Shown here piece by piece: positions 41,654 through 41,966 of a DNA stretch of 64,000 nt. How positions within the stretch are numbered: position 1 is the stretch's first letter; every line of letters starts with the position of its first letter. The notes below the pieces were generated by a model. The model saw only the letters and a program-made list of their open reading frames with translations, had not been told where the DNA came from and made no database searches. A program made the translations under genes and the position numbers. The stretch is taken from positions 1 through 64,000 of the forward strand of contig JANQNY010000033.1 in NCBI GenBank assembly GCA_028279345.1, in the 5' to 3' direction. Source of the DNA: Geminicoccaceae bacterium (GTDB taxonomy: Bacteria; Pseudomonadota; Alphaproteobacteria; Geminicoccales; Geminicoccaceae).

Positions 41654-41966
41654 GGCCGCTTGGTGGAACGGTAGACACAAAGGACTCGGCGTTTTGGGTC
41701 TCCCGGCTGGAAACGGTCGGGTAACAAAGGCGTCAAATTCGGGGAACGCTTGACTGCCGATCCCGAGCCAAGCCTCGCAATGCGCGCGGCGTTGCGGGGA
41801 AGGTGTAGAGACTGGTAGGCGCCCGCCTAAGTCGCCACTCGTGGCGATAGGGCGAAGGGACAGTCCAGACCACGAACCCGGTTCGCCGGGGCGGCGAAAG
41901 CCGAAGTGGTACGTAAAATCCTTAGGGGGCAACCCCGTGCGGGTTCGACTCCCGCAGCGGCCACCA
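41654..41966 (+). tRNA. tRNA-Leu(UAA), interrupted by a group I intron
   Basis: Exon 1 is 41654-41686, exon 2 is 41914-41966. The ligated product folds fully: acceptor GGCCGCT/AGCGGCC, D-stem GTG/CAC, anticodon stem AAGGA/TCCTT with loop CT-TAA-AA, long class II variable arm (GGGG-CAA-CCCC), T-arm GCGGG-TTCGACT-CCCGC, discriminator A and encoded CCA. The class II arm and discriminator A fit leucine tRNA; the anticodon UAA is only formed after splicing. It lies 127 bp upstream, on the opposite strand, of the large pentapeptide gene. Confidence 0.93.
41687..41913 (+). ncRNA. Self-splicing group I intron (Azoarcus-like, IC3 type) in tRNA-Leu
   Basis: 227 nt, no ORF. P1 pairs the exon end GGACU with intron GGUCU at 41697-41701, with the required U-G at the 5' splice site. 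P10 pairs exon 2 UAAAA with UUUUG at 41692-41696, immediately before the P1 guide. The last intron base is G. Core blocks GTCAAATTCGGGGAA, GAGCCAAGC, GAAGGTGTAGAGACT and ACAGTCCAGA closely resemble the Azoarcus tRNA-Ile intron as I recall it. The 3' end carries stems ACCAC/GTGGT enclosing GGC-GAAA-GCC. It should be a small active ribozyme. Confidence 0.92.

Follow-up and report, generated by a model that had tools for sequence, protein, structure and literature searches.

In the window, that is, the whole 64-kb stretch of Geminicoccaceae DNA that was analysed, a complete tRNA-Leu(UAA) gene can be read at positions 41654-41966 only once 227 nt (41687-41913) are removed. This locus raises the question of what interrupts the gene, whether the host makes use of it and by which route the interruption came to lie where it does. 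The reading that we favour, with a probability of about 0.93, is that the tRNA-Leu(UAA) gene is functional and holds a compact IC3 group I intron between U33 and U34 (U33/U34), which would have been gained by the ancestor of the genus and inherited vertically since.

The split gene and the fold of its intron

When run without introns, ARAGORN returned zero tRNAs in the 64-kb window, while with introns of 100-400 nt permitted it returned a single gene, tRNA-Leu(UAA), with the exact junction; the reversed window, searched with the same intron range as a control, gave zero genes. ARAGORN places the insertion in the anticodon loop, between U33 and U34. In-silico splicing joins U33 to U34 (GGACU followed by UAAAAUCC) and yields a full cloverleaf with a long variable arm, the anticodon UAA and an encoded CCA. 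The coordinates, the length of 227 nt, the UAA anticodon and the splice junction given in the initial annotation are exactly those reported by ARAGORN. The features of the locus are as follows:

41654..41686, + strand: 5' exon of tRNA-Leu(UAA), last base U33 (ARAGORN, tRNA-Leu(taa) with intron)
41687..41913, + strand: group I (IC3-type) intron, 227 nt (covariance model built without the window; RF00028; MFE z -2.9)
41682..41701, + strand: P1, GGACU (41682-41686) with the internal guide GGUCU (41697-41701); same P1 in the sister contig L003
41692..41696, + strand: possible P10 strand UUUUG, pairing with UAAAA of the 3' exon; absent from the sister species
41702..41721, + strand: P2, CCCGGCUG/CGGUCGGG, closed by a GAAA tetraloop
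41729..41823, + strand: P3, GGCG (41729-41732) with CGCC (41820-41823)
41739..41766, + strand: P4, UCGGG/CCCGA, enclosing P5
41773..41799, + strand: P6, 11 pairs
41810..41865, + strand: P7, the guanosine-binding helix, GACUG (41810-41814) with CAGUC (41861-41865)
41824..41854, + strand: P8, CGCCU/GGGCG plus an extension
41869..41910, + strand: P9, ACCAC/GUGGU, with P9a and P9b (GAAA tetraloop)
41914..41966, + strand: 3' exon of tRNA-Leu(UAA), first base U34, CCA encoded (ARAGORN; spliced cloverleaf)

The helices of a group I core—P3, P4, P6, P7 and P8—are all present in the order of the P3-P7 pseudoknot, and P5 is present but weak. Covariation is seen in P3, P6, P7 and P8; among relatives, 4/4 pairs of P3 are altered on both sides, and the last pair of P7 covaries between G-C and A-U. 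P1 is closed at the 5' splice site by a U.G pair (41686 with 41697), and the last intron base is G (41913), both as described before. A third element put forward in support, the P10 pairing UAAAA/UUUUG, is present in the window but has no match at the corresponding place in the sister species, which reads CGAAGGCG directly before GGUCU; the match in the window may therefore be fortuitous and was dropped as evidence. The IC3 label is given on the basis of features (227 nt, a compact core without P5abc, a tRNA host, an anticodon-loop site, and GAAA in P2 and P9b) rather than of a subgroup-specific model.

The Rfam model RF00028 does match the core, as had been anticipated, with 27.2 bits (E 6.6e-5; 601 nt searched), but falls under the gathering score of 50, which is a curation threshold and no defining property of the fold; a default Rfam scan consequently returns nothing at the locus. 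A covariance model built without the window sequence and trained on four introns—from a genome of the same family (G026), a Bradyrhizobium plasmid, an E. coli plasmid and a Gordonia phage—matched 41726-41913 with 124.8 bits (E 1.6e-40), the second-best match across the 64 kb having an E-value of 0.016. Over six introns, 94.6% of the cells of the core structure are paired and 20 pairs are changed on both sides; pairing and covariation of this extent were equalled in 0/500 shuffles, and slid controls pair 26-43%, a comparison that is somewhat biased in favour of the structure as to cells paired, since the latter was drawn on the window sequence, while this bias has less effect on the changes seen on both sides of pairs in the remaining five sequences. 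Together with the core helices and the cloverleaf, the match of the window-free model bears out the identity first proposed, namely a group I intron with an IC3-like core in a proteobacterial tRNA-Leu(UAA).

The transcript would fold into a form in which P7 of the intron core binds guanosine, and cleavage would take place after U33, at the U.G pair of P1. U33 would then be ligated to U34 and the intron would be released in linear form, with G as its last base; in vivo, the product is expected to be a mature, UUA-decoding tRNA.

The gene in its genome

The genome comprises 4.44 Mb in 87 contigs and is 97% complete. Its tRNA inventory, compiled from an RF00005 search plus individual stretches of sequence, holds 44 intron-free tRNA genes, including Leu(CAA), Leu(UAG), Leu(CAG) and Leu(GAG), none of which is a second Leu(UAA). 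The possibility of another such gene, raised at the outset, has thus been followed up across the 97%-complete genome with no find; the split gene is the only Leu(UAA) found, and no other tRNA found can read UUA. Ser(UGA) and Ile(GAU) were likewise not found in this assembly, and gaps are for this reason a real caveat for the count of one. More generally, introns of this kind are missed by standard tools (ARAGORN at default, Rfam at the gathering score), so that genomes seem to lack essential tRNAs.

The gene also occurs in a sister species (genome G001; contig L003, JAAAPF010000152.1, “Alphaproteobacteria bacterium isolate GSL.Bin6”), where gene, site and intron are all the same at 88% identity. 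Both species retain an intact core, P1, intron ends and exons, and it is the remainder that differs, by 12%. This conservation bears on the suggestion that the split gene is a silent relic and that decoding is done by a second, unassembled Leu(UAA) gene. Gaps in the assembly and the great rarity of UUA, of which there is one codon in eight neighbouring genes, would fit such a scenario; nonetheless, with the functional parts preserved in two species and a second gene not found, we consider it highly improbable.

The host genome carries one IC3-like intron. Around it lie genes for a pentapeptide-repeat protein, pirin, DoxX, a flavin reductase-like protein, an amidase, ArsR and ArsP, with neither integrase nor endonuclease genes among these neighbours and no sign of a mobile element there. 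A simple scan detected no sigma-70-like promoter or terminator at the locus. The pirin gene adjoins the split tRNA gene in the window and in the sister species alike.

Host tRNAs and insertion sites of related introns

A tRNA-Ile(CAU) group IC3 intron has reportedly been described from Azoarcus sp. BH72 by Reinhold-Hurek and Shub in 1992, and its core is one that we take to match that of the window intron. The Azoarcus intron is likewise a compact IC3 intron of near 200 nt inserted in the anticodon loop, but the host tRNA is a different one, and an Azoarcus-like CAU tRNA intron among our loci (L198) lies at 36/37, after the anticodon, whereas that of the window lies at 33/34, before it. Host tRNA and intron class are shared with trnL of cyanobacteria and plastids, where the tRNA-Leu(UAA) intron sits at U34/A35; the window junction at U33/U34 differs from this site.

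The initial annotation regarded a leucine tRNA as an odd host for an Azoarcus-like core in proteobacteria, and this view does not hold. At least one IC3-like intron was detected in 49/385 sampled genomes of the class and in 41/398 genomes of the phylum sample. The host met most often is tRNA-Leu(UAA), which in the class is split at 34/35 in about 18 loci. Other hosts in the class are Arg(CCU) at 36/37, Thr(GGU/CGU) at 36/37, Lys(CUU/UUU) at 34/35 or 35/36 and Leu(CAA) at 33/34, and those outside the class include Leu(UAA) and Leu(CAA) at 34/35, CAU tRNAs at 33/34 and 36/37, and Arg(UCU). These hosts were called by splicing each intron in silico and testing for a U.G P1 and an ARAGORN cloverleaf; for some calls, notably of Arg and Lys, other junctions come close to a tie, and a few hosts were assigned by eye. 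In print, putative group I introns in tRNA-Leu(UAA) were presented between 2013 and 2016 for Maribeggiatoa (BOGUAY) and Thiomargarita (PMC4853749); these Beggiatoaceae resemble the window in being proteobacteria with such a gene, but belong to the Gammaproteobacteria. A leucine host in a proteobacterium is, hence, not new. Putative group I introns in tRNA-Ile2 are on record for Acidovorax and Burkholderia (PMC8450103).

Taken by itself, the window intron adds one to the known group I introns of bacterial tRNAs, at a less common site, and the surrounding comparison matters more: of the genomes sampled, roughly one in eight to one in ten has a bacterial tRNA IC3 intron, in several hosts and at four anticodon-loop positions. 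In other proteobacteria, three tRNA-Leu(CAA) introns at 34/35 (L182, L186, L195) have a 5' exon ending in C34, and a C-G pair would there take the place of the usual U.G at the splice site.

Mobile replicons contain such introns as well. Split tRNA-Leu(UAA) genes with U34/A35 introns, mostly unannotated, are found on the E. coli plasmid CP142529.1 (2424-2720) and at a further locus (L200). The plasmid gene adjoins an AAA-ATPase gene, which neighbours aac(3)-IId, and a segment matching this locus is present in 645/5,426 complete E. coli genomes, mainly on plasmids, with related matches in 1,264 plasmid records. The Gordonia phage Daredevil (NC_048021.1, ~1380-1691) has a tRNA-Lys(UUU) split, according to ARAGORN, by a 238-nt IC3-like intron with a P1 of three pairs only. 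A 2014 review placed all phage introns known at that date in protein genes (PMC3984707).

The less usual trait of the window intron, missed by the initial annotation, is its site. All other alphaproteobacterial Leu(UAA) introns surveyed, including that of G026 from the same family, are inserted at U34/A35, and among the alphaproteobacterial genes for this tRNA U33/U34 was met in the window genus only. The proteobacterial U34/A35 introns (that of G026, that of the Bradyrhizobium plasmid L055 and those of many genomes) were detected by the same model and share host, core and P9 end with the window intron, but their site lies one base further 3', their guide is GAGU as against GGUCU, and they fall into another clade in trees. 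A pattern scan for 33/34 introns in about 85,000 species genomes matched 17 contigs:

1 contig: the sister species
5 contigs: gammaproteobacterial
1 contig: Oxalobacteraceae
1 contig: Kuenenia (Planctomycetota)
1 contig: Armatimonadota
7 contigs: Lewinella/Saprospiraceae (Bacteroidota)
1 contig: false match

A scan of IMG/VR found 16 viral contigs. Most matches splice in silico to Leu(UAA) at 33/34 with a GGUC-like guide; because the pattern requires particular letters, the counts are lower bounds. With a site common to phages and several bacterial phyla, the horizontal movement of tRNA introns becomes directly testable. The split tRNA-Leu(UAA) genes with 33/34 introns on IMG/VR contigs (L148-L163) lie in several cases in tRNA arrays with as many as 15 members, and one of these contigs carries a terminase gene. 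The 33/34 introns of Lewinella are of great length, several of them measuring about 720 nt, and the one that was read, a related tRNA-Leu(UAA) intron in Lewinellaceae SD302 (L138), contains a gene for a 156-aa HNH endonuclease (L138:2172-2642; PF13392, E 8.8e-6), which is a plausible means of spread. In the uncultured 595-kb phage LR756511.1, an HNH-like coding sequence extends as far as the core of the 34/35 intron in a Leu(UAA) gene.

Gain and descent of the intron

Within the family, IC3-like introns were found in 3/31 genomes only (the window genome, its sister and G026), and many other family genomes have intronless Leu(UAA) genes. It is to these intronless genes that the window exons are closest (80-83%), from which it follows that the gene was most likely resident when the intron came in; such a gain would probably have taken place within the window genus, in its ancestor. 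The opposite route, an import of the entire split gene from a source such as a phage tRNA array, draws on the 33/34-split Leu(UAA) genes in the arrays of IMG/VR contigs. However, the exons best match the family's own genes rather than phage genes, and the pirin gene adjoins the split gene in the sister species too. Exon identity led us to reject an arrival of the intron inside a tRNA gene of foreign origin, and import as a whole appears improbable.

In core trees of about 180 columns, the introns of the window and its sister stand outside the clade of 34/35 Leu, Arg and Thr introns, with support of 99/95 and 91/92 in two trees, and in a 28-row set the pair is placed among 33/34 and Lys introns (96/80). 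AU tests leave alternatives unrejected (p 0.12 to 0.35) and, owing to a core of about 180 columns, do not settle the phylogeny. A descent of the window intron separate from the 34/35 clade is, on these alignments, favoured but not proven, and a single clade of all 33/34 introns is likewise unproven.

The trees bear directly on whether the window intron might be an ordinary alphaproteobacterial U34/A35 Leu(UAA) intron that slid by one base in the window genus. Just one base separates the two sites, G026 has the same intron 3' end, GUGGUACG, and neither a grouping of the pair with the 34/35 clade (p 0.12) nor one with the intron of G026 (p 0.29) is rejected by AU tests. Yet both trees keep the pair out of the clade to which G026 belongs, the guide differs, and 33/34 insertion with the same guide type recurs in unrelated phyla and phages; we regard sliding as unlikely, though less so than import. 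Somewhat better placed, but still tentative, is the idea that U33/U34 tRNA-Leu(UAA) IC3 introns form a mobile lineage of their own, spread across phyla by phages and by versions that carry an HNH gene, of which the window intron might be a descendant without endonuclease that moved into a resident alphaproteobacterial gene. At 227 nt, the window intron leaves no room for a homing endonuclease gene and has none; its gain may have proceeded via a relative that carried or borrowed such an enzyme.

In another genome of the family (G030), an intronless Leu(UAA)-like tRNA (L012, 1444-1531) has an apparent eight-base anticodon loop, CUUUAAAA, with one extra U, which could be the scar of an imprecise intron loss or an assembly error.
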